A DNA stretch of 64,000 nt. Origin: Mariannaea sp. PMI_226 (lineage: Eukaryota; Ascomycota; Sordariomycetes; Hypocreales; Nectriaceae). A program made the translations under genes and the position numbers. The notes below the pieces were generated by a model. It was not told the DNA's origin. It worked only from the letters and a program-made list of their open reading frames with translations, and did not search any database. The stretch spans positions 1,609,393 through 1,673,392 of the forward strand of contig JANFOG010000010.1 of the NCBI GenBank assembly GCA_024336345.1, written 5' to 3'. Below are positions 13,864 through 57,795 of the stretch, in pieces (positions within the stretch are counted from its first letter, which is position 1; each line of letters begins with the position of its first letter).

Positions 13864-15531
13864 ATGGCTACCAATTGCAGAGCTTGCACGTCTACCAATG
13901 GCCAAGGCAACATCAAGAAGCGGCTCATCGTCTGCTGCGATGGCACGTTCAGCGGCGTTGACAAGGGCACAAAGGACTACAGCAGCAACGTAGCCAGGCT
14001 CAGTCGTGTCATCTCTCGAGTTGGTGCCACCAAAGACGAAGAAATCCCCCAGGTTGTGTATTACCAGTCTGGGGTGGGCACCGGATCTCTCACCTACATT
14101 GACAAGAAACGCCAAGGCACGTACTCTGACCCAATCGATATCGAGCGTATTCTAATATTTACGCAGGAGCGTTTGGTGGCAGTCTGGCAGAAAACGTCTG
14201 CGAGGCATACAACTACGTTGCAAATAACTGGGGCCCAGGCGATGAAATCTTCATATTTGGTTTCTCCCGTGGCGCGTATACCGCCCGATCGTTGGCCGGC
14301 TTCATCACCGAGGTTGGCCTGCTGACTCCTCTTCTCATGGACCACTTTTACGACGTCTACGAGGCTTATAGGAATAGAGGAAACCTGAGCTTTGCCGAAA
14401 CAGAATGGGCCAAACAACGCCTTCGCCCGGGGGAACTTGGCACCGTCCCCACGCTGCAGGATGCCAAACCGTATGATTATGGCTCTCGCATTGAGTACCT
14501 ACGTTTGGTCTCACACTCGCACGTCACCATCAAGGTAGTCGGCGTCTGGGACACTGTTGGTAGTTTGCAAGTCACCAACTGGTTTGGTGAGGTTGGAGGA
14601 GACTCGTATGGACACTCGACAAAACTCAACCCTAGTAAGGCCTGACTTTGCGAAAAGAACACAAGGTCAAAGTAGAATAAATGCTGACAATTCTCTAGAG
14701 ATCGAAAATGCATTCCATGCGCTAGCCATCGACGAAACTCGGGGAAATTTCCCGCCCACCCTGTGGTGTCTTGATTCAAGCTGCATAGGACCTGACCCTA
14801 AGAAACCCATAGTAAACCTTAAGCAGTGTTGGTTTCCGGGCTACCATTCAGACGTCGGTGGCCACAGTGAGGGATCCATTGATACCAATAGTGTTGATGA
14901 AATTGCTTTTGCATGGATGTGCGATCAGCTACACGGTTTATTGCAGCTTAGCGGCACCGCCTTGCAGAAATATATTCTCTTCAGACTCAGCGACAGAAAT
15001 TTTGACACAAGCGACAAGGAAATTCGTGACCTATCTGCCGCATGGCGAAAGATATCGTGGAGTGATGGCACCCTAGTGGACACGAATTCTTGGACGAGCG
15101 GGTGGTGGATTGGGTCCGCGCTGTCAACAGGAAAGGGCTCGTACAAACGAGTTCCAGGACAAACTGAGGCCTACACTATGGTTGATGAGACGAAAGTGCC
15201 GATTCCCTATGAAAACTTTTGCGAGGAAGTTCATCCCAGTGTTTTCCACCGCGTTCAAAAGTTCGAGACGGCGAAGAAAGGGGAACGATATATGCCTGCT
15301 CCCTTTCAGGGTTCAGAGTGGAAACACTTGAAGGCGGAAAATGGGGAAAGGGCCCGTTGGGTGAAAACCTTAGGCAATGGCAAGAAAGTTATTCTGAGAG
15401 AGTACTGTATTCCTAAGAACGAGGAACTGGCCAAGGGTTACACGAAGGTTGCAAAATATGACCACTGGCAGGGCAGCCTTGAGCGCACTTTCGCTCCAAA
15501 GGACATTCTTCAGGCTCAAGACAGGATTTAG
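13864..15531 (+). CDS. DUF2235 (Tle1-like alpha/beta-hydrolase) protein
   Basis: Three exons: 13864-14116, 14167-14634 and 14699-15531, giving 517 aa. The start is the first ATG of the frame before the conserved KKRLIVCCDGTFSG strand. DUF2235 motifs appear in order: CCDGT, VYYQSGVGTGS, KRQGAFGGSLAENV, GFSRGAYTAR with candidate nucleophile Ser118 in a GxSxG elbow, GVWDTVGS with Asp213, and a GYHSDVGGH block with candidate His290 or His297. The fold is shared with bacterial Tle1 phospholipase effectors; in fungi these proteins are common and little characterised, and phospholipase or esterase activity is an inference. Intron 1 (14117-14166, 50 bp) must begin with GC to keep the conserved block in frame. 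It has a CTAAT branch site and ends in CAG. Intron 2 is 64 bp, GTAAGG...TAG. Confidence 0.9.
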
Positions 15532-32664: not shown

Positions 32665-34142
32665 TGCTGTAGGGGAAAGTCGATATAAATGTCTCTGTGA
32701 GTAATAATTGTAGGGGTGATAGTTCAAGAAGTGGGATAGAAACTGCTGAAATTAGGCTTCAATAAGATGCGAAGCAAGTGTGTAGTGTTGTCTAGTATTT
32801 CGAGGTGACCAGCCTCTCCTTTATCTATTGCTAAACAGATGAGCCTTACCGGGACCATGACGACCACGCACCTGACTTCATTTCATTTACTATGGGACTA
32901 GTTGGCCTAGATTGTGCCCCGCCAGTATGACTAGGAAAACGGGGAAATGAAGACGATACGTTCAACCTGTTGCAAAGATATTGCTTTGAGACGAAATAGG
33001 AATGAGGCTTCGTCACCCGATTACGAGCTGAAGGGCGTCAGCGAAATCACACGAAACGTTTTTCAGTTGCTTTCTGTCGTTTTTATTGGATCTCAAGGCA
33101 TGACATCAAGATGGACTTACTATTTACAGGATAGGGGCCGACTCTGATTCGACCACACATGCTTACGTGGAAATACGTGGTCTACGGAATGCTCTAGGGA
33201 AAATAGTAAAACATTCATACCAACTACCCCGCGTATACGTAGCCTTCCAAGCATGTGCCGAACGCAAACGCAAACAGGGGCGGACTCTTAAATTACGTAG
33301 AAAGCAATTGCCGTATCGGTAGCTTGGGGAGGTCCAAGCGTATATGTAAGCAAAGAATATATGTTGAGAGCCAAGTCGTCCCTTGTTGAAAATCACTCCG
33401 TCGTTGTGTTTCAGTGTGCCGAATGGAGTTGCATTGCCCCAGTATCCTCAGTATTTGGTTGAGGCTGTGCTAGAACAATATCGATGGGTATACGCTTACC
33501 CGGTCGGTGGATGTTTTGTGGCATGAACCTCCTGACCTTTTAGGAATCAAAGCCGTGCAGTAAAAGCCGTTCCGAAACCAACTTCTAGCCACGAAAACCA
33601 TCGAATAACCCAACATTTACCGCTTCCGCCACGTAACAGATTACGCAACTGCATTGGGTCCAAGATAATTTCTCAGTAGACCTGTCAATACTCTCTCCAA
33701 GCTTTCCCTGTTCTGTATATGAGACCGTCAATTTAGGTGCATGTAAGTCTGCCTTGCCACCCCTGATGTCCCTACCGAGGTTCTAATTTAGAAATCATAT
33801 TACAAAGTTCTCTCCTAGTTGTCATAGGCGGCTAGACCCGGCAAGCTATCGATAGTCAGCAGCGAGTTTCGCTTGTTACGCCAATATCGCAGTACTTTGT
33901 AACTATTGTAAACACTTCCAACAAAGGGAGTTTTGACTCCGCAATATACCGCACAAGCACAAGCTAAACAGACTCAACTCCAGGTATAAGAATAGTGACT
34001 TGGTTCGATCAAATTCGAAATTTCACCTTCTTACCTTCATTCACAACCTAATCAATAAACCCCCATCCATCCCTAACGGTCTAGAGCTTAGTGCGCAATA
34101 ACAATTCGTTTTTATTTTCATTCGTCAACCAACTCATCCAGG
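32665..34142. other. Divergent spacer, nothing recognised
   Basis: About 1.5 kb between the small secreted protein and the laccase. It contains a pyrimidine-rich leader before the laccase ATG. No gene or repeat is supported. Confidence 0.4.
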
Positions 34143-35908
34143 ATGGTTCATTCACTTTTATTTATAGCGCCCTTTATTCTGAGAGCGGCGCATGCCTTTC
34201 ACTCTTTCGATAAATCTGCTAATCTCTACCCTCGGTCTTCATGTTCCGGCAACACAGCAACTACTCGAGATGAGTGGTGCGACTATGATATCTCGACAGA
34301 CTATTACAATGACGCACCAGATACCGGTGTTACTCGAGAATACTGGCTCGAGCTAACCGACGTCACGGTAGCCCCAGATGGTGTCTCGCGTTATGCGCAG
34401 GCGATCAACAACAGCATTCCCGGCCCAACCCTCTTCGCCGATTGGGGTGACACCGTCGTGGTCCATGTCAGCAACGCACTCTCCACCAGCACCAATGGTA
34501 CCAGCATTCACTTCCATGGCATCCGCCAGAACAATACGATCCAGAATGACGGCGTGGTCAGCATTACGCAATGCCCTATCGCTCCTGGTAGTAGCATCAC
34601 CTACACATGGAAGGCTGTTCAATATGGCACCACATGGTACCACTCTCACTTTGCCTTGCAGGCATGGGAGGGTGTCTTTGGTGGAATTGTCATCAACGGC
34701 CCGACTACGGCTAACTATGACGAGGATTTGGGCGTTCTGTTCCTGAACGATTGGAGCCACCAGACGGCTGATGAGCTGTATGTGTCGGCAGAGACAAGCG
34801 GGCCACCTACGTTGACAACGGGTCTCATTAATGGCACTAATGTTTTTGATGAGACTGGCCATCGTTTCAACACCTCTTTCACCGAGGGCAAGGCATATAG
34901 ACTACGTGTTGTCAATGCTGCCATCGACTCACACTTTAAGTTCTCCATCGATAATCACACCATGCAGGTGGTTGCCTCTGATCTCGTCCCTATTAAACCT
35001 TTCAATACAAGCATCTTGAATATTAGCATGGGTATGTATTATCTAACTTCTTATCTTCCTTTGCTAAAACTTTCCTGCTAATACATGCCACCCTCTCTTC
35101 AGGACAGCGATACGACATCATCGTCACAGCCAACCAGTCATCCGTAGCTGACAACTTCTGGATGCGTGCTATTCCCCAGAGCGCTTGCTCATCCAATGGC
35201 AACTCTAATGACATCAAGGGTATTGTCTACTACGGCAGCAATCCAGGGACGCCGGAGACGACGGGCTATTCATATACAGACAGCTGCGAGGATGAGGATA
35301 CTTCTAATCTGGTACCTTATGTCGCCAAGAAGGTTTCCAGCGAGACCGCAACGGAAGGCGAGTCGGTAACAGTCGCTAAGAATAGCGATAACCTATTCAA
35401 ATGGTACCTCAATAGTACGACTATGGTGGTTGACTGGGCGGATCCAACTCTGCTGCAGGTATACAACAACGCTACCACCTTCAATACATCTAACGCCGTA
35501 ATCTCATTGCCTAACGCCGACGAATGGGTGTATGTGGTCATCAGCACGACTATGCCGGTGCCGCATCCAATCCATCTTCACGGGTTCGACTTCTACATCC
35601 TGGCACAAGGTACGGGTACATACAGCGACAGCGTGACGCTTAACACGGACAATCCCCCGCGCCGTGATGTCGCTATGCTCCCCTCGTCTGGCTACCTCGT
35701 GCTAGCATTCGAGACGAACAATCCGGGTGCCTGGCTCATGCACTGTCATATCGGGTGGCATACCAGCGAGGGTTTCGGTCTCCAGTGGGTGGTGCGCGAG
35801 TCCGAGATTGCCGACCTCATCGATTACGAAATACTCAATTCGACATGCACCGAATGGAAGACCTATGCTGCAAGCAGTAGCGTCGAGGAGGACGACTCGG
35901 GCATCTAG
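34143..35908 (+). CDS. Ascomycete laccase (multicopper oxidase)
   Basis: Two exons (34143-35031 and 35103-35908) around a 71-bp intron, giving 564 aa. A signal peptide (about residues 1-18) marks it as secreted. Three cupredoxin domains carry the four copper-binding motifs: HFHG (123-126), WYHSHF (165-170), HPIHLHG (451-457) and HCHIGWH (510-516), so the type 1 site and trinuclear cluster look intact. The motif-4 context places Leu or Phe near the axial position of the type 1 copper. The protein ends in DSGI, the C-terminal plug typical of asco-laccases (usually DSGL/I/V) that closes a tunnel to the trinuclear site. Such enzymes oxidise phenols with reduction of O2 to water. Likely roles are in melanin, lignin-derived phenols or detoxification. 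The nearest neighbours give no pathway context. Confidence 0.93.
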
Positions 35909-39317: not shown

Positions 39318-41627
39318 GTTTAATTGAAGGGTTAACATTAGTATAATTGAATTTAAATGACTACCATAAAACTATGAACAGGAATAAGGAGGTAACTTTT
39401 GGTCACTTTTGCCACGGATTGAGAGTGACCGATCAATACGAGGAGCTTGATAAGCCGCCAGTCCGCAAACTGCGTACGATGATCGTAATGGTAAATACGT
39501 TTCTAATCATGCGCTTCGCTTCGATTTACACAATCCATTCCTAGATTCATCGACAATCAGTGCCGCCTGTCTTAGCAACTCCGTAGCCCAGAATGACTGT
39601 GCTGACTCAGAGACTTGCCAGGAGAAACATTCAAGTCCATCTCCTACTGAGCCAGCCTGTCGTCGCTCCCCCCTGCCCGGGATCAGGTGGCCGGCGGTTT
39701 CCCAAATTGGCTTTATTCCTTGTCAGCTTGTTTAGATTTGCAGCATGGTTCGTACAGCCAATCACACATCCGAACTGTTTCCGCGTTGGAGACGCGATCC
39801 ACCGGAACGATGCGAAGATAAGCAGTGCTCGTCGAATTACCACAGGACGAGAATATTTGTTTTGACACTTGCAGGACACCATCAATGGCCGACATCAAGT
39901 CGATGTGTCAAATACTGTATAAGAATCAGTGTTCATTTAAATATGTGGATTCTATGAAACCGTGCAGCACCATACGAGCTTTGGGCTAAAGGACGGATTA
40001 TCCAATCTCCGAGTGTTGTCAATATGACATTGGCTATTCGATATACCAAGCTTATAAAAGTCTGGCCGAAGCCGACCGAAGCCGAAGATTTTGCATCAAC
40101 TCCAGCAAGTTGCCTACCATTTTCTCCACCAACCTTCTAGCTCAGCTTCAACATCTCTGCCCAACGTCAAACATTTCGGTATACTTGCATCTATAGTAAC
40201 ACAACATTCGTTCAATGTCCTCCTAGAAATTTAACTGGCTTCTGAGAACAGATCATGGATGTATGTGAGCGGGCGCAAACTTTCATTGAAACGATGAAAA
40301 CTGCGTCTTCGACCATATAAAAACTTGTTCTCAAAGGAGAATCAGGGAAATACTTCTTTTTTAATATCAGAAATCTCATTCTAGTTATCAAATCTCATCG
40401 AGGGAGGGTTTGTTAGAGGACAAAGGAGTCAAGCCTCGGTTTAGTCAGATGGTCATTTGCAGCTAAGACAAGGTAGTTGAGGGGGGGAGGCATGGGAAAC
40501 CTTCCTAATCCTTTGTTACCAAGTACAATTCATACCCGGTTAGGAACTGGTTCAGTTAGTCGAGACAATGATAGCGTCCCGGAAGACAAGTGAGCTGAAT
40601 TTAGAAACTGGGCCGCCACGAGCCGCCACGTACATAATCAGCACAAGCAAAACGAGGTCTAGTAAAAAAAAAAAAAGACTGCATCATGTTTTTCACATTG
40701 AGGTTTAGCGTCATGCCAGCGTAAGACGGCCTTGCGTCGTCATCAGTCAGGTGCACTGTTCACAGATGTGAAGAATAAATCAACCTGTCACTAAGGTGGT
40801 GCTGAAGTGGGGGCTGGCGGCTTGTAATGCCTCCCAGTGCTCTCACGGCTGAGCAGAGCATACTCCTCACTCCTAGGCAGTCTCCCAATATTCAACATAT
40901 CCTCGACTTGGCAGCCTAATTTACTGTCTCGAAGTCTTGCTTGCTGTAGGGTCTCTGGCGCAAAAGGTCCATCACGATATTGCCTCAACTAGGCCACGCT
41001 AGGACGGGTGTTGCCCGCTTTTCTCCACATTTGCACATTGCCTCAAAGACAAGCTTTTCTCCCCCCACCCCCATCCCGATCACCACTGCAAGTTCCTTGT
41101 ACGCCTCGAACTAGATTGCAAGTCCAGAACAGGCGGCGGGTTGCCGAGCATGCGGCTCTAAAATACGGGATTGGCCAACAGCGCACTCCAGGGTCTGGTA
41201 GTGGGGCGTAACCTCAGGCTCGGCACTACCGTGTAACCGGCTGCGGCGCTGGTGATTGGTCCCTCTCGGAAACCCGGAGTCGCAAAGCCAATCAGCGCGC
41301 TTGGAATCGGCCATTCAGTACCGGCGACCAGGGGCCTGCTCTGACAGGCGTCTGTCTGGTAGTGAGGAACTGCTCGCTGCCGTGTACATGTCTATCGACG
41401 CTTCTTGTCAACGTTAACTACCCATCCGTCACAAATCTATGCGGGATTAATAGACGTGAGATCCCACGAGAGACCCATCCTCCTTGATGACCATGAGAAA
41501 TATCTCTCGTAAAGAAAAGAAATTTCCGCAATCACCGCCTTACCCCTGTCCGAGCTCCTGCTTGGGGGTCAAGGAGTGTGTGTTGCCGCGAAAATAATAA
41601 ATAGCAATAAATCTCAACTGGGTGAAG
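39318..41627. other. Intergenic region and promoter of the P-type ATPase gene
   Basis: About 2.3 kb. A 65-codon minus-strand frame at 40791-40988 follows a splice-acceptor-like CCTAG and reads like protein, but has no ATG and no recognisable family. Repeated GCCGAA and GCCGCCACG words occur near 40060 and 40610-40630. A CT-rich tract near 41056-41080 and the GC-rich stretch before 41628 look like an ordinary fungal promoter. Confidence 0.4.
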
Positions 41628-44600
41628 ATGGCTTCCAAAGATTGCTGTAGTCCATCATCGTCTGGTAGTTCCTCTTGGGATCATCCGCGTTCTGCACACA
41701 CAGCAGCCGCCAAGTTCTGTCACATCTGTGGCTCTCTGCTGCCCAACTTCCGTATCCTCCACCTTCACGGTTCCTCCACCATGTCGGAAGACGCTGCAGG
41801 CGACAACGAGCTGGTCAAGGCCGAAGGCCATGGACACATCACCTTCGACGACGATGCTCGTGTGGGACGCCAGGAACGCCCCGGCCTCCACCGTACCTCG
41901 TCCCGGAGGCGCTCGCTGAGCCATGACAGCTCCCGGAGCCGCCTGGCCGCCTCCCCTACCACTGGGATCCAGATCGAGTACAGGACCTTGTCCATCCACG
42001 TGTCAGAAAGCCGCCGAGTCGACGAAACGGATTCCGACATCAAGAAGGGAGCCAAAAAGAACGAGCACGGCGACTACTTCGCCAACCTCAGCTTCCACAA
42101 GCTTGAGGTCGACCAGATCTGCCAGCAGCTGAACGTCTCCAAGGAGTCTGGCCTGTCCGAAAACGCTGCGGCGAACCGCCTTCAGCGCGATGGCAAGAAC
42201 ATGCTGCCCGAGCCGAAGACCAACTATCTCAAGAAGCTGGCCCTATACCTGTTTGGCGGTTTCTGCTCTGTCCTCTGGGTCGGTGTGATCATCTTCTTCA
42301 TCTGCTGGAAGCCCCTTAGCAACCCGCCTTCGCCCACCAACCTCGCCCTGGCCATCCTCGTCATCATCGTCATTCTGCTCCAGGCCGGCTTCTCTGGCTT
42401 CCAGGACTGGTCTACCCAGCGGACCATGAAGTCCATCCTGAGCCTTCTGCCCTCGGATACCCAAGTTCTGCGCGACGGTAAATTGATTACGCTTCCCACC
42501 ACCGACCTGGCCAGCGGCGACATCATCCATCTCAAGATCGGAAACCGAGTGCCCGCCGACATGCGCATCCTGAGCCATTCAGGCGACATCCGCTTCGACC
42601 GTTCCATGCTCACTGGCGAACCTGACGAGATCGACGGTGCCGTAGGCTGCACAGATGACAACTTTCTGGAGAGCCGCAATATTGCACTCATGGGCACCAT
42701 GGTGGTCAATGGCAGCGGCGTTGGCGTCATCGTCCTCACCGGCCCGCGCTCGGCAATGGGACGCATTGCCAATGCGACTGTCAACGCCAAGGAGCGCGTC
42801 CCGTTGATCCAGAAGGAGATCTGGCGCTTTGTTTACATCATCATCGTCCTCACTATCATTCTCGCTCTCCTGATTCTTTTGACATGGGTCTTCTGGTTGA
42901 GAGTCAAGCATTTTGAATTCATGAATGTCGTGGCTATGCTCAACGATGTCATGGGCTGTGTGGTCGCCTTTATCCCCGAGGGTATGCCTGTGGCTGTGGC
43001 CCTGACTCTGATGCTTGTTGCGAACCGCATGAAGGCCGTCAACATTCTCCCTAAGGGTCTGACAACGGTCGAGACTCTCGGCTGCGTCAACGTCATCTGT
43101 TCCGACAAGACGGGAACCTTGACGCAGAACAAGATGTTTGTCACGTCAATAGCATTCCTCGATCATGAAGTCGACCGTCAGGAATTCGACCGCATGGCAC
43201 TGAACGACGATGCCCAGGAAAACGTTCAGAGACTGCGGCAAGCCGCCTACCTCTGCAACGATGCTATCTTTGATCCGACAACCCTTTCGCTACCCCTGGA
43301 CCAGAGGGCTATCTCCGGAAATGCCACCGACAGCGCAGTTCTGCGAATGGCCGCTTTGGGTAATACGGGCTGGGCGAGCGCGATGCCCAGGATTTTCCAA
43401 ATCCCTTTCAACTCAAGCAACAAGTGGATGCTCACCCTTCACGGCACCGATCAATCTGGCGAGAAGGACGATCAGACGTACCAGGCCCTGGTCAAGGGTG
43501 CGCCGGACATGCTTCTGCCCGCCTGCACCCACTTCTGGTCCGGTGAGACGAACTCGGTGCAGGTTCTCGACGACGCCGGCCGTGCAGATTTCAAGGCCTA
43601 CCAGGACAAGCTATCGCGCAACGCGGAGCGTGTTATTGTTCTATGCGAGAAGACCATGAAGATCGCCAACCAACGCGGGACGAACGCCTTCGGCGACGAG
43701 GTGACGCAGAATGCCATCAGCGCCTTGACCATCATTGGTATTCTTGGCATCACAGACCCTGCTCGTCCCGAAACGGCCTGGACCGTAGCCGAGTGTCGCA
43801 GAGCCGGCTCGCGTTTCTTCATGGTCACAGGCGACTACAGCCTCACAGCAGCGGCCATTGCGCGCAACGTTGGCATCTTCACTGGGGATACCGACCCAGA
43901 CACGTTCAACACCCTCCACAACCCTTCCGCCCCGTCGTCCTTGGAGCTGCGCAAGGGTCGCCTCGATGGCGAGCGCCGCAGCCTTCTCCTGAACGGAGAA
44001 CATGTGGGAAAGCTCGCGGATGAGGCTTGGGACCGTGTTTGCGAGTATGAGGAGATTGTCTTCGCGCGCACGACGCCAGAGCAGAAGCTGCGTATTGTTG
44101 AGGAGCTCCGCCGCCGGGACAATGTCGTAGCCGTTACCGGTGACGGCGTGAATGACGCACCCGCGCTGCGTGCAGCCGATGTAGGCGTCGCGATCGTGAC
44201 CGGCAGTGACGTCGCCATCGAAGCGTCCGACCTGGTGCTACTGGACCAGTTTGACTCGGTCGTCGACGCCATCCGCTACGGCCGGCTTGTGTTCCAGAAC
44301 CTGCAAAAAGTCATATCCTACCTGCTCCCAGCCGGCAGTTGGTCCGAGATCTGGCCTGTACTCATCAACGTTTTCTTCGGGGTTCCTCTCCCGCTCAGCT
44401 CATTCCTCATGATCATCATCTGCGTCTTCACCGATCTATTCCTCTCGCTCTCCCTGATCATGGAGAAGGAGGAGTTCGACCTGCTATCCCTGCCACCCCG
44501 GAATCACAAGCGCGATCACCTGATCACCGCCAAGATCTACATCCAGGCCTACCTGATCACGGGCACCATGGAGACGGTCATCGCACACTCCATGTTCTTC

Positions 44601-45050
44601 CTGTACATGTGGAAGTACGCGGGCATCCCTGCTAGTTCCCTTTTCTTCGCCTTTGAGAATTATTCTGCCGGCTTCTATGGATATAGCCAAGAGGAGCTGA
44701 ACAACTTTAACGCGACGGGCCAGTGCGTCTACTTCGTGTGCCTGGTGATGCTCCAGTGGGGCAACATCCTGGCGGTGCGCAACCGCCGCATGAGCATCGT
44801 GCAAGCCGACCCTTTCACTGAGAAGCGCCGTAACCCGTGGCTCATCCTCAGTATGATTATCAGTCTCGGCATAGCCATCTTTGTCACTGAAGTGCCCGGC
44901 ATCCAAACCCTCTTCGGAACGGCGTCCGTGCCCATTGAGTTCTGGTTCATCCCCATTCCTCTGGGCCTGGCCATTCTGTGCGTTGATGAGATCCGAAAGT
45001 TGCTCGTCAGGCTGTTCCCCAAGGGACCTCTTGCTAGGATTGCCTGGTGA
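41628..45050 (+). CDS. P-type cation ATPase, Na,K-ATPase-like (type IIC) group
   Basis: An intronless gene of 1140 aa. ATG 41628 is the first in frame; a second possible start (MSEDAAGD) lies about 50 residues on. The N-terminal 150 aa are charged and Ser/Arg-rich and may be regulatory. The order is canonical: N-domain start with LFGGFCSVLWVG (membrane helix 1), actuator-domain LTGEPD (TGE motif), PEGMP in membrane helix 4 (about 450-454), the phosphorylation site CSDKTGTLTQN (Asp493), KGAPDML in the nucleotide domain, and TGDGVNDAPAL (about 837-847), followed by six C-terminal membrane helices. The early helix-1 motif and overall similarity fit the animal Na,K/H,K-ATPase-like group found in some fungi rather than PMR1 or ENA pumps. 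PEGM replaces the usual PEGL. No beta subunit gene is seen here. The transported ion is not certain; Na+ or K+ is likely. Probably plasma membrane. Confidence 0.94.
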   Translation: MASKDCCSPSSSGSSSWDHPRSAHTAAAKFCHICGSLLPNFRILHLHGSSTMSEDAAGDNELVKAEGHGHITFDDDARVGRQERPGLHRTSSRRRSLSHDSSRSRLAASPTTGIQIEYRTLSIHVSESRRVDETDSDIKKGAKKNEHGDYFANLSFHKLEVDQICQQLNVSKESGLSENAAANRLQRDGKNMLPEPKTNYLKKLALYLFGGFCSVLWVGVIIFFICWKPLSNPPSPTNLALAILVIIVILLQAGFSGFQDWSTQRTMKSILSLLPSDTQVLRDGKLITLPTTDLASGDIIHLKIGNRVPADMRILSHSGDIRFDRSMLTGEPDEIDGAVGCTDDNFLESRNIALMGTMVVNGSGVGVIVLTGPRSAMGRIANATVNAKERVPLIQKEIWRFVYIIIVLTIILALLILLTWVFWLRVKHFEFMNVVAMLNDVMGCVVAFIPEGMPVAVALTLMLVANRMKAVNILPKGLTTVETLGCVNVICSDKTGTLTQNKMFVTSIAFLDHEVDRQEFDRMALNDDAQENVQRLRQAAYLCNDAIFDPTTLSLPLDQRAISGNATDSAVLRMAALGNTGWASAMPRIFQIPFNSSNKWMLTLHGTDQSGEKDDQTYQALVKGAPDMLLPACTHFWSGETNSVQVLDDAGRADFKAYQDKLSRNAERVIVLCEKTMKIANQRGTNAFGDEVTQNAISALTIIGILGITDPARPETAWTVAECRRAGSRFFMVTGDYSLTAAAIARNVGIFTGDTDPDTFNTLHNPSAPSSLELRKGRLDGERRSLLLNGEHVGKLADEAWDRVCEYEEIVFARTTPEQKLRIVEELRRRDNVVAVTGDGVNDAPALRAADVGVAIVTGSDVAIEASDLVLLDQFDSVVDAIRYGRLVFQNLQKVISYLLPAGSWSEIWPVLINVFFGVPLPLSSFLMIIICVFTDLFLSLSLIMEKEEFDLLSLPPRNHKRDHLITAKIYIQAYLITGTMETVIAHSMFFLYMWKYAGIPASSLFFAFENYSAGFYGYSQEELNNFNATGQCVYFVCLVMLQWGNILAVRNRRMSIVQADPFTEKRRNPWLILSMIISLGIAIFVTEVPGIQTLFGTASVPIEFWFIPIPLGLAILCVDEIRKLLVRLFPKGPLARIAW

Positions 45051-45684: not shown

Positions 45685-46251
45685 ACTAGGTCGAAGTGGG
45701 GGTGTATTTGGGTCTGTCAATGACTCTGGCGACAGCGCTTGAGACTTGTAAGTGGGCCACTTGGCTGAAATTCGCTTTTTCGGGAAGTAGAAGAAAATAG
45801 ATTGATACTGCGGGGTTCCATAGCCAGAGGAATGACCATATACGGAGTTGCTCAATTCCTCATAGCATAGATAGTTGGCATGTTCAGCTGTATCATTTGA
45901 ACAAGTACGGGACCAGCTATCATATAGAAATCGAAGGCAGTTAAAATAAGCAACTTCGCCAAGCGATTTAATAGATGGTAGAATCAAAACTAACTAACTC
46001 TCTAGCCTAAAAATGCCTTTATTGTCAGGGTGGTACATAAATACGGAGAATAGAGGCTAGACTATTCCGAACCAGTAAATCCAAAGTGACGCAGCCGTTT
46101 TGTAACCTTTAGTCAGCGATTCCACTTTTTCTTCGGCGCACCCCACGTGAAAGCGTGATCCAGAGTTCGTACTTTCGTACAGACCTCCCAGCATTTATTT
46201 CCCCTACTGATACCACCCAGTGCAGGGAAGCTGCCCAAACTGTCTTACTCA
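45685..46251. other. Spacer upstream of the transcription factor gene
   Basis: No gene seen. Overlapping frames on both strands are chance. Contains the 5' region of the Zn2Cys6 gene. Confidence 0.35.
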
Positions 46252-49200
46252 ATGCCTCTTGGCTCGAGGACCACGCAGTCTTGGGGCGTTTCCTTACCCT
46301 TGCCCTCCTTCCAGCACCCACCTCGGCCGCAGAACGCCCGTCCGGATAATTTCTTGGACCTGATGTCGCAACTCGGGAATACCAGGTCGCCCTCCAACAT
46401 TACTGCAGATAGCCGGTCAACACAGGCCTCGACGTATACCCCCTCCCCGGTGTCCCTGTCGGGGGAGGAGAAGCACGTGGCGACAGAGGACTCATTTGTG
46501 CTGGCTGGGCAACAATCCCCCCAGCCAGCGCCGCGGAAACGTCGTAGGATCACACGCGCATGTGATGACTGTCGACGGAAGAAGATCAAGTGTGACGGAG
46601 GGCGACCATGTGCGAGCTGTGCAGATTTCACCTCAGGTAAGCCAACGGTTTGGCCGCGTGCAGTGTAGTTTCCGCTGACAATTGATCTCTGATTTGAAAG
46701 AGTGCACGTACGAAAAGCCTTCGGTACGTGAGGGCGGTGCCAAGTCAAAAGAGGTGGAGGCTCTGGAGAAGAAGCTCAGGAGGGCGGAATCTCTGCTTCG
46801 CAAGTTCATACCGGATCTGGATCTCGAAAATGACTTTCCCCCAGCTCTCGCACACCTGAGGCTGCCTAGCAGCGCTGCTGTGGATGTCGACAGCAACGGT
46901 GAAGCCTCTGAGGCGGCTCCAATGGTAGAAGCTGGAGGCGACGCCATTTCAGACCGCGCGAGATTCATTCAACTGGTTCAGAGAACTGGCCAGCTGGATC
47001 TCACCGACAGCGACGAGTACGTCTTCCACGGTCTGTCCTCCGGAGCCGCCTTTTTGAGTCGAATCAGCCAACAGTTTCCCGCCCTCGTGAGGTACGATCC
47101 CCGAACACCATTTCTACCTCAGCCTCACCGTCCTTTTCTTGCCTCGCCGATGGATGGGCTGCCAGTCTACTCGGCCAATCCATGGTGGCAGGCAAACTAT
47201 GACTTCATGAAATTGCCACCTCGAGATCTCGCGTCATCTTTGTGCGAATACTCATTCAACTGCGCCTCTTGCATCCTCCAAGTCATTCATGCTCCATCGT
47301 TCTGGAAGATGTTCGATAAGTTGTACGAGGAACGACCGCAGGAGTACACGCATGAAGAACGACGGTTTGTCGGGTTACTTTTTTCTATTATAGCCCTAGG
47401 CTCCATGTATGATGTTGATGAGAACGACCCGACGAACCCCGACCACTATGCCGTTGCCATGGATCGAGGGTAAGAACATCTACGCTCTTCTGGAAGCCGA
47501 CTCCCTACGTTTCCTTACGTCCTCACTGACACTCAAATGAAACTCAGACACAAATACTACATATCAGCAAGACTCCATTTGCAAGACATCACTGAATGCG
47601 GTGATATGACGACTTTGCAGGCTCTTGTGTTCATGATTCAGTTTCTACAGGCCACCGGCAATCTCAGCGGTTGTCACACTATGATCGGCATTGCTCTCCA
47701 TTCTGCCCTGCGCATGGGACTGCACCGACACCTGCCACACACATCTATGACGCCAATCAAAGATGAAACGAGGAGGAGGGTGTTCCACACGATCCGGCAG
47801 ATGGATATTTACTTGTCCACGACACTCGGGCTCCCGCTCATGCTCCAGGACAAGGACATAGACCAACCATGGCCAACAGAAGTGGACGACGAGAACATCA
47901 CCGAGGATACCATACTTCGTCCACCACCTGGAACCCCGTCATTTCTCGAAGCCTTCAACGCCCACACCAAGCTAATGCGTATTCTCGCGACGGTTGTGGA
48001 GCATCTCTATCCGCCCAAGGGCACGGAGGGACCAACAGACATAACATACATGATCAGCTGTGCCCGCATCAGGGAGATTGAGCAACAGCTTCACGATTGG
48101 CATGAGCGACTTCCGCCCACCTGGCGCCCAGGCCCAGAGGAGGACACGCAGATTATCCGGTATGTGGCTCTCTCCTGGCTACTTGATTGTAACTAACTTG
48201 GGAAACCATTGCAGGGTCAAAACTCTATTGCGCTTTGCTTATGGCCATGTTCAGCTAATGCTGTACAGGCCGTTTCTCCAATTATATTCGAGCCAGGCAT
48301 CAGATTCCGAGATCACAGATGAGCGGCATTTAGCTCTCGCGAGGACAGGTATCAATGTTTGTCGAAACATTATACACATCGGTGTAGAGATCCGAAGGCA
48401 GGCCGTTCTCATAGGGCCTTATTGGTTCATTACCTACACACAATTCTTCGCCGTACTGAGCATCGTTTTGTATGTGCTGCATAACCCAGACAAATCCGGG
48501 GCGTCGGAGCTCATCTCGGACGCCAAGCTGGGCAGAGACTGCATATCCGGCCTCACTCAGAAGAGCTTAGCGGCTGATAGGGTTACTGCCGCTCTGAACG
48601 TGAGTGGTTTCGTGGGCGAAAATGTGTTGCGAAAACCTGGGTATTGCGGGCTAATATATCGTAGTCCTTATTTGACCAGCTTCCCAGTCAATTCCAGTCG
48701 ACAAGCTCTCCCAGCTTTGACGGTGACTTGAGCCCAATACCATCTAAGAATAACGCCAAGCCTCGATCTCAGGACCCGGTTGCTCGACGGGCAGCTCAGT
48801 TGAGCATTTCGCGGCCGCACAGCCCATGGCATCAAAAGTCACGCGCATCACCGGACATTCAGTCCTCCAATCCTCAGCGCGGACCTACCCAGCAGCCCGT
48901 TCCAATATCTAGCCATGGGCTAAGCTGTGAATCCACAAATGTCATGGACTTCCCCATGGAGGATCCGTTTGCTTACCCCATAATACCGGAGGTGAGTCCT
49001 GCCGTTCCAATGTCGAGCAACGGGCTAGGCCGTGAATCCGCAGATGTAATGGAATTCCCTATGGAGGATCCGTTTGCCTACCCCATAATGCCGGGGGTGA
49101 GTCTTACGGACAACAGTTTTACAACTCTACGCGAAGACACCATGCAGCTCCATGTCTACAGAATGCACACAGACATGGAAAGCCAGCTTATGTATTTCCA

Positions 49201-49297
49201 AGATCTGACACAGCCGTCCACCTCTCAGCGCGAACCAGCGCCTGTCTCGGCGAGCGAGAGGCCTGTTGAAAATAAGCTTAGAGATAGGAAAACATAG
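46252..49297 (+). CDS. Zn(II)2Cys6 transcription factor with Fungal_trans domain
   Basis: Five exons: 46252-46636, 46701-47469, 47548-48159, 48215-48599 and 48665-49297. The introns are 64, 78, 55 and 65 bp and all phases join, giving 927 aa. The zinc cluster spans residues 104-130 (C-x2-C-x6-C-x5-C-x2-C-x6-C); intron 1 falls just before the sixth Cys, as in many fungal regulators. A basic run RKRRRITRACDDCRRKKIKC precedes and overlaps it, and a coiled-coil segment (KEVEALEKKLRRAESLLRKF) follows. The middle-homology (Fungal_trans) region covers about residues 250-700, including LHSALRMGLHR and RRRVFHTIRQMDIYLSTTLG. The C-terminal tail contains a tandem duplication of about 38 residues (VMDFPMEDPFAYPI / VMEFPMEDPFAYPI, 48930-49095). 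It could regulate a carbon- or metabolite-related pathway, possibly the RiPP locus 4 kb away; this is inference. Confidence 0.9.
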
Positions 49298-51782: not shown

Positions 51783-52247
51783 CTATGCCTTCCATACATG
51801 GTTGCCCTTGTCAACACTCTCAGGGACCTCAACTGAATCCTTCCACAGATGATTGCCCTTGTCAACACTCTCAGGCGCCGAGTTCTTCCAGAGGTGGTTG
51901 CCCTTGTCAAGAGTCTCAGGCGCCGAATTCTTCCACAGATGATTGCCCTTGTCAAGAGTTTCAGGCGCCGAATCCTTCCACAGGTGGTTGCCGTTATCAA
52001 CACTCTCAGGCGCCGAATTCTTCCATAGGTGGTTGCCCTTGTCAAGAGTCTCAGGCGCCGAATTCTTCCACAGATAATTGCCGTTGTCAACACTCTCAGG
52101 CGCCGAATTCTTCCATAAGTGGTTGCCTTTGTCAAGAGTTTCAGGCGCCGAATTCTTCCACAGGTGGTTGCCGTTGTCAACAGTTGTTGGCAACGCTACC
52201 GCAACGTGGAGTGCTGCCAGAAAGCCTATAGCTGCTGAGGTCTTCAT
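51783..52247 (-). CDS. Small secreted repeat protein (nine GNHLWK repeats), candidate second peptide precursor
   Basis: An intronless gene of 154 aa starting at ATG 52247, chosen because it begins a signal peptide (MKTSAAIGFLAALHVAVALP). The rest is nine tandem repeats of about 15 residues with the pattern (T/S)(L/V)D(K/N)GNHLWK(N/D)SAPE; the eighth has an insertion (VEVPE) and the ninth is cut short (GNHVWKA). There is no cysteine. Lys-Arg pairs are absent, so classical Kex2 cutting between repeats is not predicted; single Lys residues flank GNHLW in most copies. The DNA repeats also leave long open frames in the other frames and on the opposite strand; these are shadows. The gene is divergent from the Lys-Arg-type precursor gene 1.2 kb away. 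TATA-like sequence lies about 100 bp upstream and a TGACGTCA palindrome about 155 bp upstream. It may be a peptide precursor, a cell-wall repeat protein or an effector. No homologue was recognised. Confidence 0.72.
   Translation of the reverse strand: MKTSAAIGFLAALHVAVALPTTVDNGNHLWKNSAPETLDKGNHLWKNSAPESVDNGNYLWKNSAPETLDKGNHLWKNSAPESVDNGNHLWKDSAPETLDKGNHLWKNSAPETLDKGNHLWKNSAPESVDKGNHLWKDSVEVPESVDKGNHVWKA
51785..52200. repeat. In-gene tandem repeat of about 45 bp
   Basis: Nine copies of a 45-bp unit encode the GNHLWK repeats. Copies differ by a few bases, so the array looks homogenised or recently expanded. Confidence 0.75.
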
Positions 52248-52401
52248 AATGGATTGTGTTTTGTTGTGCCGAAGGTTAGAGAAAAAGGGAGATAACTGTT
52301 GGTCTCGATGCATATACTCTCAATGAACAAAGTCTCCATGCCAATATATAGCAAAGTAGGTCCTTGCTATACAGGAATACCCTCTAGTTTATTTGGGATC
52401 T

Positions 52402-52409
52402 TGACGTCA
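52402..52409. promoter_or_regulatory. CRE-like palindrome TGACGTCA
   Basis: A perfect bZIP/CRE-type palindrome about 155 bp upstream of the repeat-protein ATG. Binding is inferred. Confidence 0.4.
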
Positions 52410-52452
52410 AAAACGCACATTCCCCTCTTAGTCAGGACTTTTGGGCTGCATT

Positions 52453-52520
52453 AGAGCACTGCTAGCATCAGAGCACTGCTAGCATCAGAGCACTGCTAGC
52501 ATCAGAGCACTGCTAGCATC
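52453..52520. repeat. Perfect 17-bp tandem repeat, four copies
   Basis: The unit AGAGCACTGCTAGCATC occurs four times without a mismatch. It contains the palindrome GCTAGC. It lies in the shared promoter of the two secreted repeat-protein genes. Confidence 0.85.
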
Positions 52521-52530
52521 AGAGGTGGGT

Positions 52531-52598
52531 AGGTCATTCTCGGGGACCTGACTTTCGGTGACCTAGGTCATTCTCGGGGACCTAACTTTCGGTGACAC
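52531..52598. repeat. 34-bp tandem repeat, two copies
   Basis: Two adjacent copies starting AGGTCATTCTCGGGGACC differ at very few positions. Each copy contains the inverted words AGGTCA...(t)GACCT and GGGGACCT. Confidence 0.8.
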
Positions 52599-53476
52599 AT
52601 CTATAATAGGCAGTTAGCCACATGGACTATTGTTCGTGCTCAAAATTTACAAAAGTTCCGCAAATACTCATATGATACCATCTCGATTCAACTATCGTCT
52701 AAAAGATAATAATTGTAAAAAGTTCCGCTGATGGGCAAACACCATTGCAATAGTACCTTACGACCTACTTAATTCGGTCTGGGAGTGGCCAAGATTGCAT
52801 GTTGTTATACGTCATTTGGGTTCAGCCAAGACATTGTTGACGTCCTCTTAATTCGCTGACAAATAGACTACAAACATGTAACTACTATGATGATATGTTG
52901 GGGACTTTTGTTCAGAACTCCAATGCGCCATTTATGTTATTGCATCCCAAACTTGTGAGATCTCGTTGGAGTGGAACGTGAGAACCGTTGCGCCGAATAT
53001 TGAGGTTAGATCCCAATGTGCATTATTAATGATAAGTTTAGCTCTTAGACAAGAACTTTTTGAGAAGTTTCTGCAATTTTAATTTGACACTACTGACTGG
53101 TCATACATCCTATTGCTCAGGTGGGGATGTGAGGGTGAGAACAATCACGTCTTAGAAGTTGATGCATAGAGCGCTCCCCATTTGGAGGTTTTCTTACTTC
53201 GCCAGCTGAGGGTTACGATAAATGACAACAAATTATCACCTTCTCTAGTAGGGATAGATCGATAGATTTATTGTATGAGCTGTGTTGCTGGGATCAATTG
53301 ACTAGAAGATATCCTGATTTCAGGCGAGGAGTCTGATAAGTAACTACATGGCGTCAGAGTGGGATGTCATAAATACCATGATTAAGTGCTCCAGTATTCT
53401 ACGATTTCTTCATCCCAAAACTCTCAGATCCTAAATCCACTATCCAAAGTTAACCCTCTCGACACATTTCGTAACC

Positions 53477-53804
53477 ATGCATAGGAATGCCATCCTCGTC
53501 GCTTTGGTCTCGTCTTTGACATTGGCCACTGCAATGCCAGGTAGGCATAAATTGTTGCACTTCTCATTAGAAGACTCTTCTAACGTTAGATTAATATATC
53601 GAAGTCACTGCTCCCGTTGTTGCAAGCAAGAATCATAATAGTGTTACTGAGGAGCGCTATGTCTACCGAGTCCCAAAGGAGGACATTAAACGCGAGGTAG
53701 CTACTGAAGGGCATTCTATCTACTCAATTCCAAAGGAAGATGTCAAGCGTGATGCATCTGCTGAGGAGCGCTATGTCTACCGAAATCCAAAGGAAGATAT
53801 TTAG
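53477..53804 (+). CDS. Candidate RiPP precursor peptide (dikaritin-like, Lys-Arg-separated Tyr repeats)
   Basis: Two exons (53477-53540 and 53605-53804) around a 64-bp intron (GTAGGC...AAG) give 87 aa. The acceptor is the only one that gives an open frame. A signal peptide covers residues 1-20 (MHRNAILVALVSSLTLATAM). Three repeats with a period of 19 residues follow: Tyr at 42, 61 and 80, each in a Y-x-x-P-K-E-D-(I/V) context (YRVPKEDI, YSIPKEDV, YRNPKEDI). Lys-Arg pairs at 50-51 and 69-70 close the first two repeats; the third ends at the stop codon. Repeats 1 and 3 share EERYVYR at protein level and are almost identical in DNA there. This is the layout of dikaritin-type fungal RiPP precursors (ustiloxin, phomopsin and epichloecyclin families): signal peptide, Kex2 sites and Tyr-containing cores. 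Two UstYa-family genes lie within 4 kb. The core and its chemistry are inferred. Confidence 0.72.
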
Positions 53805-55005
53805 GACATAGAACTGCTTTGCTTTATGTCGCAACGGAGTGCATCAAGTCACATCTGAGCATGGACTAGCAGTTAACACTGCTCTGATGTATGAGACCTT
53901 CGTTATCCCTTTTACTCGAGAAGACTGGGGCACTTTCAATTTATTATTTTATGATGCTTAATGATAATTAGAGCTTGTGACATATTGCCATACGGGATCG
54001 TAGTATTAAACTCATGTTGAGCGAACTATTATGGTGACAGCCATGTGATACTGGGAGCTGTTGGCTGAATCATTTTCCACCAGGAGATGAAAGCTTTTAA
54101 TTAAATTCCACATCTTTGAAATATATTGGCCAGGATGTATATCATAAGCGAAATGGCAAAAAATCCCCCAACCTTCTGTTTCTTTAATTAAATATTTCTC
54201 ATCCACGAACTGTGTCATAATCAAATTATGGGGCCAAAATTCGTCTAGGACTAAAGGCACGTTGGAGTGACCTAAAAAATAAACGTTTATGTGGTGCCAA
54301 GATCCACCAAGTTAGATCTTGACTATTCCATAATATAGCTTCTTGGTGTAATAAGATCTCTAAACTATGTAAACTATTTAATCTACTTATTTGGTTCATT
54401 TAAACCCAAATTTATAATAGTTTTTGTTTATAACTTCATAATACAAAAAAGAACTAATTCAATAGCTTACTAACTGTAATATATGCCTTACTATTAAGTA
54501 TTACATTCTCAAGTTTATTAAGTAAAATCTAGAGCTTCAGGTATGTTTTAATTATACATTATTTACTAAAGAATCAAATTTATAATCTTAATTATAGCTT
54601 ATTATAACAATTACATCTTTTATTAGGTTTTTACTCCACCATTTATTAAACTAACATCTTAGACCCCCTTGCAAATTCGTAATAGAGAGAAGGGAGAGAC
54701 CAAGAAAGGATGGGACAATAGTGACACTCTAACATTCAGATCGCCATCAGGTATAAGAGAAATGCATTCTTCAAGTCTTCTAGATACATCAAGTGCGTGT
54801 TTATATAAGAGCGGTGGAGACTCACCTTACCTTGGCTCATGCTGACGACATCGTTGCCGCGCCCAATCACAATGCTTTCAATTGAGCTTATAATATCATG
54901 CCGACGTTAAGACTAGCGGACGGTGAGACAGAGGACTGTTTATCCGACTAAAAATATAGAATGACTAGTACTACACCCAAATCTATCAAAGCCTATTCAT
55001 CAACT
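53805..55005. other. AT-rich intergenic block
   Basis: About 1.2 kb. From 54270 to 54660 the DNA is extremely AT-rich, typical of a RIP-decayed repeat. An 82-codon minus-strand frame at 54012-54260 was not recognised. Confidence 0.45.
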
Positions 55006-55972
55006 CTAATCATCCATAAGATTCTGTGTCAAATCTAATTTCAAGCCTTGACTCATAAAGCTTTTCTCTTTGGCCCATTCTCTTATGCGGTCAAAGTTTC
55101 GACAGCTGTGTATCACGTCCCCATGGATTCGCATTCTCTCCTTGTTGTTATCCCATTGATAGACAAGAGGAGTGATGTCGGTTTGGCACATCAGAGATTG
55201 TCTAATAGTATCAATACAGTGCTCGATATGTTCCGAATCAAAGTATGTGAGAATCTCATCGGCTTCCGATGTATGAAGGTTTCGATAATATTCTGGGTAA
55301 CGGGACATCCTTATCATGTTCTAGTTTGATACAGAGCATTAATATATTAGCGCCTAGTAATTAAAGGCTCAGTAAAATAACTCACTAGGCAATGTAATTG
55401 GTGGAAGACGTCCAACTCGACAAAGTATTTGTCTTCTGTATTAGCTATCCGACCAGTTCGATTTGGAAGTAAGGCTGCTTCATTTTTGCTAATTGCCAAT
55501 AACCCAACTGTAACCCAGCCATATTAGAGACAACTCCATTGACGATAATGCTTACTTACATTCGTAAAGGCTTTCCCATTCCCGATCCCTCTCCTTTGTT
55601 GGTGGGCCCTGAAGAGAAGACTTATCATTCTCAAACCCTTGTGTGAACCTGGTAGTCTTGTATTCGATCTCGTCTTGGGCGGGGGCTAGGGGGTTTTGTC
55701 AATATGAAGATGCAATATTGTGAAAGACAACGAAGCTCACAATATAAGATTTGTGCAGATTGGTTTCGGCAGAGAGGCAATGACTTTATTTGTATGCTGA
55801 TAAGCAATATAATAAGCATGAGCCAAGGGGTGGCAATTGCAAGCTGTATCTTGTGGTGCTTCCATGGGCTTTTTGCACTCAGTCCCGGACCTTGACCTGG
55901 AATGGCCTCAAGATCGTTGTCATATTCCTGGTCTTTCAGAGGCTGATAAGCCTTGGGACCTGGGTTCGCCAT
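55006..55972 (-). CDS. UstYa-family (DUF3328) oxidase, first copy
   Basis: Four exons: 55972-55741, 55685-55560, 55507-55386 and 55320-55006. The introns are 55, 52 and 65 bp and all phases join, giving 264 aa. Start MANPGPKAYQPL was chosen as the first ATG. A single membrane helix (about 43-62, LAIATPWLMLIILLISIQI) follows a short cytosolic head. The UstYa signature is complete: YSPAQDEIEYK, GPPTKERDREWESLY, and the two HxxHC motifs, HQLHC (155-159) and HIEHC (191-195), with the linker NMIRMSRYPEYY. Proteins of this family (UstYa/UstYb, and relatives in phomopsin, asperipin and victorin pathways) are membrane-bound copper-type oxidases or cyclases that modify Tyr-containing RiPP cores. It faces away from the precursor gene 1.2 kb upstream in the map. 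The neighbourhood makes a role in cyclising that precursor likely. Confidence 0.9.
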
Positions 55973-56818
55973 GAACAACTCACGGTTCTTCAAGACTGAA
56001 ACTGAATCAGAGCGGAAATATTGAGGATACTTGGTGGTATATTCTAACGATTAGAATACCAGACAGGAGTATGTCAATTGTAGTGGAGGTAATCTAGCGA
56101 AGAGAACAGGTCTTGCAGACTCAATATTAAATACCAACCACGTTTGCCGTGCCCGGATCAGGCTTATGCTCGGGGACCAGATGTACCACATTGCCGCCAC
56201 CTTCTCGGAACTTGGAATATTCGCAACCAGGTATATGCCCGCTAAATGGAGGATCAATATGCAATCAAGTCAATCTATGACAACTACCTTCCATTTTAGA
56301 GATCAGCAGGACACTGGGGCTCATTATGTGAGGGGCTGTATGGGTGGGAGTGACTTAAATCGATTCTATTTTTTTTGGTGGGGGAAAATCTGACACTAAG
56401 GCTCACATGAGCATAAACTCCGTATTACTGTATCAACTTGACAAATTAATGACGAACTAGGCCCTAGGGCACGTAGCAAGCAGCTCTCTTAACCACCTGC
56501 CAAATACGGAATCTAGAACAAGCTTATCAACGGTGGAGAAATATATAGTTAGTATTGGTTTGCTGGGTTGATATTATTGGTTATAAATTCCTACGATATA
56601 AGTGCCTCTACCAAAGGAGCCTTGTGGAGGCCTTAGCTTGGGTAGCAACCCTCTCGATTAAGCACCTACCTAATGCGGAATCTGGAACAATGCTTATGCA
56701 ATAGTTGAGCAATACGATCTTTTAATACAGTCCCATCTCTTCAACCTATCTAGGTCTCCTGACCCCATTGACGCAGCACAGTTTCCGTATCTTGTTGTAT
56801 ATACATTTCATTGACAAG
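55973..56818. other. Divergent spacer between the two UstYa genes
   Basis: About 850 bp separating two head-to-head UstYa-family genes, so probably a shared promoter region. Two similar segments near 56485-56530 and 56655-56705 (ACCTACCTAATGCGGAATC / ACCTGCCAAATACGGAATC, each followed by TGGAACAA or TAGAACAA) look like an imperfect direct repeat. Confidence 0.42.
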
Positions 56819-57795
56819 ATGAAGTCGACCTTATTTTCTTTTAAACACGATGACGAGGAAGAAGACAGTTTCCTGAATCATTCTGATTCAGCTGGCTTAT
56901 CATACAGAGATGATCATTGGCGCCGCTGGCCGTCAATGTTATACACTGGACTAAATATTTTTTTCTTCATTTGTTCTTGTTCCTTGTGGATCTATTGGTA
57001 TCATACAAACAATACTCTCTTGAATGCAGGCTTCCGCCAAATATCTAGCTGGAGTGTGTAAATTCACTGGTCTGAGAACGATTTCATATAGCTAATTCTC
57101 TACAATTAGCGCCTTTGATTGACCTTGTTGATCTGGATCCATCCGTACAGCTAGTTAACGGCACGTTTTTCCCACCAAAATACCCTTCTATCGGGCGACA
57201 ATTGCCTAACGACGCTGCTGATGCAGCGTGGCACGAGTACGAGATCCAAAGGATCGTCCCGATTTCTCGCCAAGACGTTATAAACTTAGGAAAAGATCCT
57301 TCAACAGCGGTGAAGCTTGAGGATAAGGATTGGGGCCTTGGTAACGATTCGTATGTAGCTGCTTTGGATGTTTATCACCAGCTCCATTGCCTCAACATGC
57401 TTAGGAAGATTGCATATGGCCAATACTATAATATGTCGCAAGGAAGTGCAACGTCACTGACCAGGACTGAGCTACACATCAATCATTGCGTTGATATTAT
57501 CATGCAAGCATTGCAGTGCAGTGGGAACCTGAATCTTATCACTTACCATTGGGTTGAGACGCAACCCTATCCTTTCCCTGATATGTCCGTTAACCGTCAG
57601 TGTGCCAACTTTGGCGCTCTGACAAGTTGGAGAAAGGAGAACACGGTCAACATGACGAAATACGATGAAGTGTATAAGATAAAACCTGCAGAGGTGAAAC
57701 AAATGCCGGCACCTAATGGCTTATTTAAGTATATGTGGCATACACCACGGCCTTCTAACCTCCTTCCCATCCCAGACGAAGACTATAACCTATAG
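56819..57795 (+). CDS. UstYa-family (DUF3328) oxidase, second copy
   Basis: Two exons (56819-57053 and 57110-57795) around a 56-bp intron (GTGTAA...TTAG), giving 306 aa. The ATG at 56819 begins a short acidic cytosolic head (DDEEED), and one membrane helix follows (about 40-60, SMLYTGLNIFFFICSCSLWI). The luminal part shows the UstYa pattern: DLDPSVQLVNGTFFPPKYPS, AWHEYEIQRIVPIS, DVYHQLHCLNMLRK with HQLHC (168-172), and the second motif HINHCVDIIMQ with HINHC (201-205). It has a C-terminal extension beyond the first copy and several N-glycosylation sites. Two UstYa paralogues next to one precursor is the usual composition of a dikaritin locus. The two copies are only moderately alike, so they probably act on different steps. 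Confidence 0.9.

Follow-up and report, generated by a model that had tools for sequence, protein, structure and literature searches.

What is being made by the small genes crowded near one contig end of Mariannaea sp. PMI_226 (Hypocreales, Nectriaceae), where two UstYa-family genes lie next to genes for two secreted-looking repeat proteins, one with tyrosine (Tyr) and the other with tryptophan (Trp) repeats, and are both of these repeat proteins UstYa substrates, or just one of them? The stretch analyzed (hereafter, the window) is the 64,000-nucleotide piece at positions 1,609,393 to 1,673,392 (forward strand) of contig JANFOG010000010.1 (C2; 1,673,392 bp) in GenBank assembly GCA_024336345.1 (42.2 Mb, 25 contigs), i.e., the last 64 kb of that contig. 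We think it likely that the cluster is a small, probably subtelomeric, locus of the dikaritin type, dikaritins being ribosomally synthesized and post-translationally modified peptides (RiPPs) that derive from a Kex2-processed repeat protein and are cyclized by UstYa (PMC10512285), with Tyr cores oxidized by the UstYa protein(s) and the Trp-repeat protein most likely serving as a second substrate. The cluster is real, intact and RiPP-like; its kind is known, its core sequence went unmatched, and its product is a predicted one. For the Tyr-repeat precursor taken together with the UstYa genes (Table 1), the dikaritin-like reading is supported, at the sequence level, by gene content, by adjacency and by the equal pairing seen at four other UstYa loci of the genome. 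An earlier note on this DNA had proposed a dikaritin-like locus as a whole, which stands for the Tyr precursor with the UstYas and is plausible for the Trp-repeat protein; a Zn2Cys6 regulator, the contig-end setting and a sister cluster on contig C20 were found beyond that note.

Table 1. Features of the window cluster and of the other UstYa loci in the genome (aa, amino acids; coordinates without a prefix are window positions).
Feature	Coordinates	Strand	Remarks
Tyr-repeat precursor, 87 aa, 2 exons	53477..53804	+	signal-peptide-like N-terminus, three Y-x-x-P-K-E-D repeats, two KR sites
UstYa-1, 4 exons, 264 aa	55006..55972	-	PF11807 E 7.7e-51; HQLHC and HIEHC; one membrane-spanning stretch by eye
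UstYa-2, 2 exons, 306 aa	56819..57795	+	PF11807 E 8.5e-49; HQLHC and HINHC; long N-terminal helix
Trp-repeat secreted protein, intronless, 154 aa	51783..52247	-	nine GN(H/Y)(L/V)WK repeats, no dibasic site
Divergent promoter common to both repeat-protein genes	52248..53476	.	CTCGGGGACC at 52539 and 52573; 17-bp tandem array 52448-52524
Divergent promoter common to both UstYa genes	55973..56818	.	third, last CTCGGGGACC of the window, at 56169
Zn2Cys6 / Fungal_trans transcription factor, upstream	46159..49297	+	exon boundaries approximate; Zn_clus E 2.7e-8, Fungal_trans E 1.4e-25
OrsD + DEAD/Helicase_C open reading frame, 1542 aa	59189..63814	+	Pfam; outside the pathway, marker of the likely subtelomere
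C20 locus, ~12 kb	L012:2763-5526 and L013:1714-4353		two divergent precursor/UstYa pairs, one with Trp and one with Tyr repeats
C19 precursor/UstYa divergent pair	L014:1860-5483		repeat NTNIYCFID-KR
C2 (1.248 Mb) precursor/UstYa divergent pair	L015:2012-5336		repeat GVANWQW-KK, ten dibasic sites
C7 UstYa-like gene (partial model, second motif not resolved) with divergent repeat protein	L016:4677-7954		YGDY-rich, secreted-like, two dibasic sites

The Tyr precursor had been described in the earlier note as a two-exon, signal-peptide-bearing protein with KR-separated Tyr repeats, and the gene model, the shuffles and an identical NCBI protein all bear this out. Its exons (53477-53540 and 53605-53804) enclose a 64-bp intron (53541-53604; GTAGGC...CGAAG, with CTAAC upstream of the acceptor), and the NCBI protein BGZ63DRAFT_427229 (Mariannaea sp. 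PMI_226) matches it at 100% over 87 aa, so the same splice was chosen by an independent gene prediction. The three repeats, NSVTEERYVYRVPKEDIKR, EVATEGHSIYSIPKEDVKR and DASAEERYVYRNPKEDI, recur with a period of 19 aa; their best lag score is 90, and shuffling the mature part 2000 times never gave more than 45, which rules out a chance repeat as the source of the periodicity (0/2000 shuffles reach the score), while the codon test adds no support. Signal peptides, here as elsewhere, were assessed by eye and by hydropathy. One core is flanked by KR on both sides, and the outer two end at the mature N-terminus and at the stop, respectively; by the published definition of a Kex2-processed repeat protein, which asks for three or more repeats, each 8 aa or longer, between KR/KK/RK/RR sites (PMC7329392), this precursor, with its 3 repeats and 2 dibasic sites, is a borderline case. 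Secreted, repeated cores lying between Kex2 sites, as in dikaritin precursors, are seen in the Tyr precursor and are not seen in the Trp-repeat protein. The Y-x-x-P-K-E-D repeat, which the earlier note did not recognize, indeed went unmatched in the protein search (beyond its own NCBI record) and in the literature searched, and a search of the genome found no paralogs of either precursor.

Adjoining this gene are two intact PF11807 genes, each encoding both HxxHC motifs, in line with the two full-length UstYa proteins claimed earlier. The UstYa-1 model (reverse-strand exons 55972-55741, 55685-55560, 55507-55386 and 55320-55006) is the longest of 11 splice variants passing the filter; a broken gene, as an interrupted frame in the raw DNA might suggest, is ruled out, ordinary introns yielding an intact 264-aa protein. 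UstYa-2 (exons 56819-57053 and 57110-57795, intron 57054-57109) is represented in NCBI by a partial model of 268 aa, and has 75 database matches at E <= 1e-20, itself included, at 40-63% across the list. The best of these outside this organism comes from Xylariales sp. AK1849 (60% over 75% of the query), with further relatives in genera including Seiridium, Apiospora, Neoarthrinium, Pestalotiopsis, Bisporella, Cytospora and Metarhizium. When UstYa-2 was aligned with 33 of the 74 remaining matches, H168, H171 and C172 of the first motif and H204 and C205 of the second proved invariant, and H201 was conserved in at least 90%. No solved UstYa structure was found by sequence, and when UstYa-2 was modeled with AlphaFold2 (mean pLDDT 84.5), the model matched 0 PDB entries at E <= 0.001, so structure adds nothing on the UstYa mechanism. 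The NCBIfam search returned nothing.

The pairing of repeat proteins with UstYa genes extends well past the window. Genome-wide, PF11807 gave 10 exon-level matches, amounting to at least 7 genes in five loci: the window cluster, C20 (two genes), C19, C2 at 1.248 Mb, and C7. Each of these loci (5/5) has a repeat open reading frame (ORF) that begins with a signal-like stretch and is no more than a few kb from a UstYa gene (for the C20 Trp, C19 and C2 1.248 Mb proteins, that stretch comes from an upstream exon read by eye, without a splice model), and at all four loci other than the window the repeat gene is divergent from its neighboring UstYa, with two such pairs at C20. Codon-multiple tandem arrays were found in 5/6 UstYa regions vs. 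3/25 controls (one-sided Fisher p 0.0018), a comparison whose criterion (period a multiple of 3, >=18 bp, >=2.5 copies) was set after the repeats at the UstYa loci were already known; the six regions cover five loci (C20 being split into two halves), the C7 region fails at 1.9 copies, and the controls were 20 random 9.9-kb pieces from four contigs plus 5 pieces of the window, one positive being a region of 24% GC. A P450 match at C19:3969649-3970896 lies ~10 kb from the C19 UstYa.

Closest to the window in composition is C20, which likewise holds Trp- and Tyr-repeat precursors and two UstYas, one of them the sister of UstYa-1. The repeats themselves are, however, not recognizably related, each C20 precursor stands back to back with its own UstYa, and the distribution of dibasic sites is reversed: the C20 Trp precursor (RDVNAPDWK-R) carries six, whereas the Tyr one (DYIREGRDV) has a single site located before the repeats and none between them. 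A tree was built from 18 proteins, namely 12 chosen UstYa-2 relatives and six UstYas of this genome (the C7 protein being left out). It places UstYa-1 as the sister of the C20 UstYa lying beside the Trp precursor (L012:4912-5526; support 97/95), clusters together the C20 and C19 UstYas that lie beside Tyr precursors (95/98), and groups UstYa-2 with its own relatives from other fungi; good support is limited to 4/15 of its inner branches, and five of the branches to proteins of this genome are very long. Within the genome, UstYa-2 scores best with the C20 Tyr-side UstYa and UstYa-1 with the C20 Trp-side one (39% in both cases). These groupings and pairwise scores suggest that the UstYa class might depend on which aromatic residue the repeats carry: Trp for UstYa-1 and its C20 sister, Tyr for UstYa-2 and the C20 (L013) and C19 (L014) proteins. 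This is a hypothesis only, because there are just five loci, the weakly placed C2 (1.248 Mb) UstYa also sits beside Trp repeats, the C7 protein is outside the tree, and the pairing within the window cluster is drawn by analogy. A full two-substrate system, in which Tyr-based and Trp/His-based cross-linked peptides would each be made by their own UstYa subclass and the Trp precursor matured without Kex2 dibasic sites, seems to us rather unlikely.

As to the Trp-repeat protein itself, that a second secreted repeat protein is encoded there, as the earlier note had it, stands as far as the repeats are concerned, its membership in the cluster being only plausible. The nine repeats (e.g., GNHLWKNSAPETLDK) are spaced by 15 aa, the last spacing being 17, each Trp is followed by a lone Lys, and the periodicity score was reached by 0/2000 shuffles. 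Three frames (the proposed one and two others) are open over most of the array, so openness alone is no proof of coding; the MKTSAAIGFLAALHVAVALP start favors the proposed frame, and across the seven repeats (of nine) with full 15-aa spacing synonymous changes made up 55/101 codon differences in that frame vs. 11/93 and 0/93 in the other long open frames. The remaining frames gave 2/99, 6/101 and, in a partly open antisense frame, 47/99, so the test separates the long open frames only, and not that last one. Taken together, the shuffles and the codon-level variation rule out a chance repeat or open-frame artifact. The protein database returned five candidates, none at E <= 1, and the gene is apparently unannotated, being absent among the database matches. 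As there is no dibasic site, this is not a standard Kex2-processed repeat protein, and the KR sites pointed out earlier are thus real for the Tyr precursor and missing from its neighbor. It is nonetheless probably, if not certainly, a second substrate of the cluster, because C20 holds an equal set of parts, the UstYa-1 sister included.

If the dikaritin-type reading is correct, the Tyr precursor would, as in its family, enter the secretory pathway by means of its signal-like N-terminus and be cut by Kex2 at the Lys-Arg sites present in it, the cores around YVYRVPKED, HSIYSIPKED and YVYRNPKED would then be oxidized by one or both membrane-anchored UstYas into side-chain cross-linked cyclic peptides, presumably without a tyrosinase (on the precedent of asperipin-2a), and trimming enzymes and export would be supplied from elsewhere in the genome. 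Such an economy of parts has to be judged against the gene content nearby, for which Pfam was run on 46 ORFs and four gene models of the window, which together cover 46/58 ORFs of at least 120 aa (three via gene models); each of the 12 others overlaps a scanned ORF or the repeat array in another frame, and shorter exons were mostly outside the scan. Among the matches there were no tyrosinase, P450, peptidase, methyltransferase, non-ribosomal peptide synthetase or polyketide synthase domains, tyrosinase matches genome-wide fall on contigs C24 and C1 only, and 0/104 P450 matches listed fall in the window (92/108 candidates scored), all of which agrees with the lack of a nearby P450, tyrosinase or peptidase remarked upon earlier. 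The original five-gene dikaritin proposal (Ding et al., as quoted in PMC12048977) places a tyrosinase, methyltransferase, transporter or peptidase in the cluster, none of which was found in the scanned window ORFs, and later-reported dikaritin clusters also lack one or more of those enzymes (PMC12048977).

The likening of this locus to the minimal composition of ustiloxin and epichloecyclin pathways was a loose one, since ustiloxin needs a tyrosinase, and asperipin-2a of Aspergillus flavus is the closer minimal case, sharing (by gene content) a repeat precursor with Tyr-based cores, UstYa and no tyrosinase (PMC9233826, PMC12048977). The window cluster differs in that it has two UstYas where asperipin-2a has one and in that a second protein, with Trp repeats, and a nearby Zn2Cys6 regulator come in addition, while no reductase is visible. 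With ustiloxin/phomopsin it has in common a Kex2-type repeat precursor and at least two UstYa genes, ustiloxin also having a cluster regulator (PMC10512285); these pathways, however, use a tyrosinase, and their clusters are reported to encode peptidases and methyltransferases as well (PMC7329392, PMC12048977, PMC9233826), none of which was found among the window ORFs scanned. Epichloecyclins (GigA) are likewise made from a secreted multi-core precursor in a plant-associated fungus (PMC9233826); the Tyr precursor had no sequence match beyond its own record in the protein search. No paper describing the window locus was recognized in the open-licence PMC literature searched, judged by titles, abstracts and passages; the genome of the strain is listed in a table of PMC11433043.

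Several observations weigh against the reading preferred here. The Tyr precursor holds only three cores and two KR sites, and its repeats differ by 6 synonymous and 26 non-synonymous codon changes spread evenly across codon positions, so there is no codon-level constraint in them; the mature Trp-repeat protein has 0 dibasic sites, hence none between repeats; the two window precursors stand back to back with each other, vs. precursor-UstYa pairs at the four other loci; the two divergent promoters share 5 10-mers, which is not above control (mean 2.0, 95% point 6); and a peptidase, transporter or reductase was not identified near the cluster among the Pfam-scanned ORFs. Neither precursor, moreover, has a detectable relative in a large protein search, so no conservation backs them, and, as that search required shared exact 5-residue words, diverged precursors would escape it. 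A lone precursor is normal for such proteins, 2560 of the 7878 precursors in PMC7329392 being without homologs. It is quite possible that the Trp-repeat protein is an unrelated secreted neighbor (a wall or apoplastic protein) and that the UstYas act on the Tyr precursor alone, given the missing dibasic sites in all nine repeats, the missing homologs and a gene that diverges from the other precursor and not from a UstYa; against this, the C20 Trp-repeat protein with its six dibasic sites pairs with the UstYa-1 sister, and the C20 Tyr-repeat protein, itself beside a UstYa, also has no dibasic sites between its repeats, so their lack does not exclude the Trp-repeat protein as a substrate.

That the Tyr precursor gives unmodified linear secreted peptides instead, as a Kex2-processed signaling peptide would, with the UstYas acting on another product, we regard as improbable. 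UstYa proteins do also act outside RiPP pathways. In addition, 6120 of 7878 published Kex2-processed repeat proteins have no UstYa gene nearby, and the class is suggested to have begun as linear peptides (PMC7329392). Here, however, two UstYa genes lie less than 4 kb away, Tyr occurs in 3/3 repeats, repeats and UstYas are associated at every UstYa locus found in the genome, and no other biosynthetic core enzyme was seen among the window ORFs scanned; for comparison, 22% of the 7878 proteins lie near UstYa/DUF3328 genes (mean distance 3.09 genes), 65.6% of the repeats so placed holding Tyr (PMC7329392). We also doubt that the locus is a subtelomeric relic, its genes intact and silent or the cluster stripped of accessory genes: it does lie 6-12 kb from the contig end, adjoining a multicopy helicase gene, with few cores and no accessory genes found, but all four genes have open, spliceable frames, both UstYas retain both motifs, and among the long open frames it is the proposed one in which differences between the Trp repeats are most often synonymous.

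With a dikaritin-type locus preferred, the pairing of a Tyr-rich with a Trp-rich precursor, and a second cluster having an equal parts list, are the more unusual part of the finding. Few fungal UstYa-type RiPPs have been characterized (five dikaritins are named in a 2022 review, PMC10512285), as opposed to thousands of candidate precursors predicted (PMC7329392), and at least five UstYa loci in one genome, two of them with both Tyr- and Trp-repeat precursors, offer a natural comparison for UstYa substrate choice. The Trp-repeat gene also suggests that likely substrates are overlooked by precursor searches that demand dibasic sites or an annotated gene.

The Zn2Cys6 factor upstream is a candidate pathway regulator; a 105-bp tandem duplication (48897-49103) lies in an ORF at the 3' end of its region. 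The promoter array between the repeat-protein genes has 4.5 copies of its unit. The motif CTCGGGGACC occurs 3 times in the window vs. 0.08 expected from shuffles, always inside the two divergent promoters; it is a lead only, because it was chosen by eye, two of its three copies fall within one 34-bp tandem duplication, and the total of shared 10-mers is not above control. It is absent from the five other UstYa regions of the genome.

Turning to the setting, the OrsD/helicase ORF has seven more copies on other contigs, 99-100% identical over the matched stretches, and copies or pieces of it touch, or end within 200 bp of, the ends of C2, C14, C6 (a 59% copy) and C20, so the cluster probably lies in a subtelomere; the final 400 bp of C2 show no telomeric repeat. 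A further group of ~60% identical copies exists, and this is likely a young subtelomeric helicase family. Farther upstream in the window lie a multicopper oxidase (34092-35905) and a P-type cation ATPase (41601-45047), with no sign of cluster membership. At 13699-15528, three neighboring ORFs jointly span a Tle1-like phospholipase catalytic domain (PF09994), which is best known from bacterial type VI effectors.

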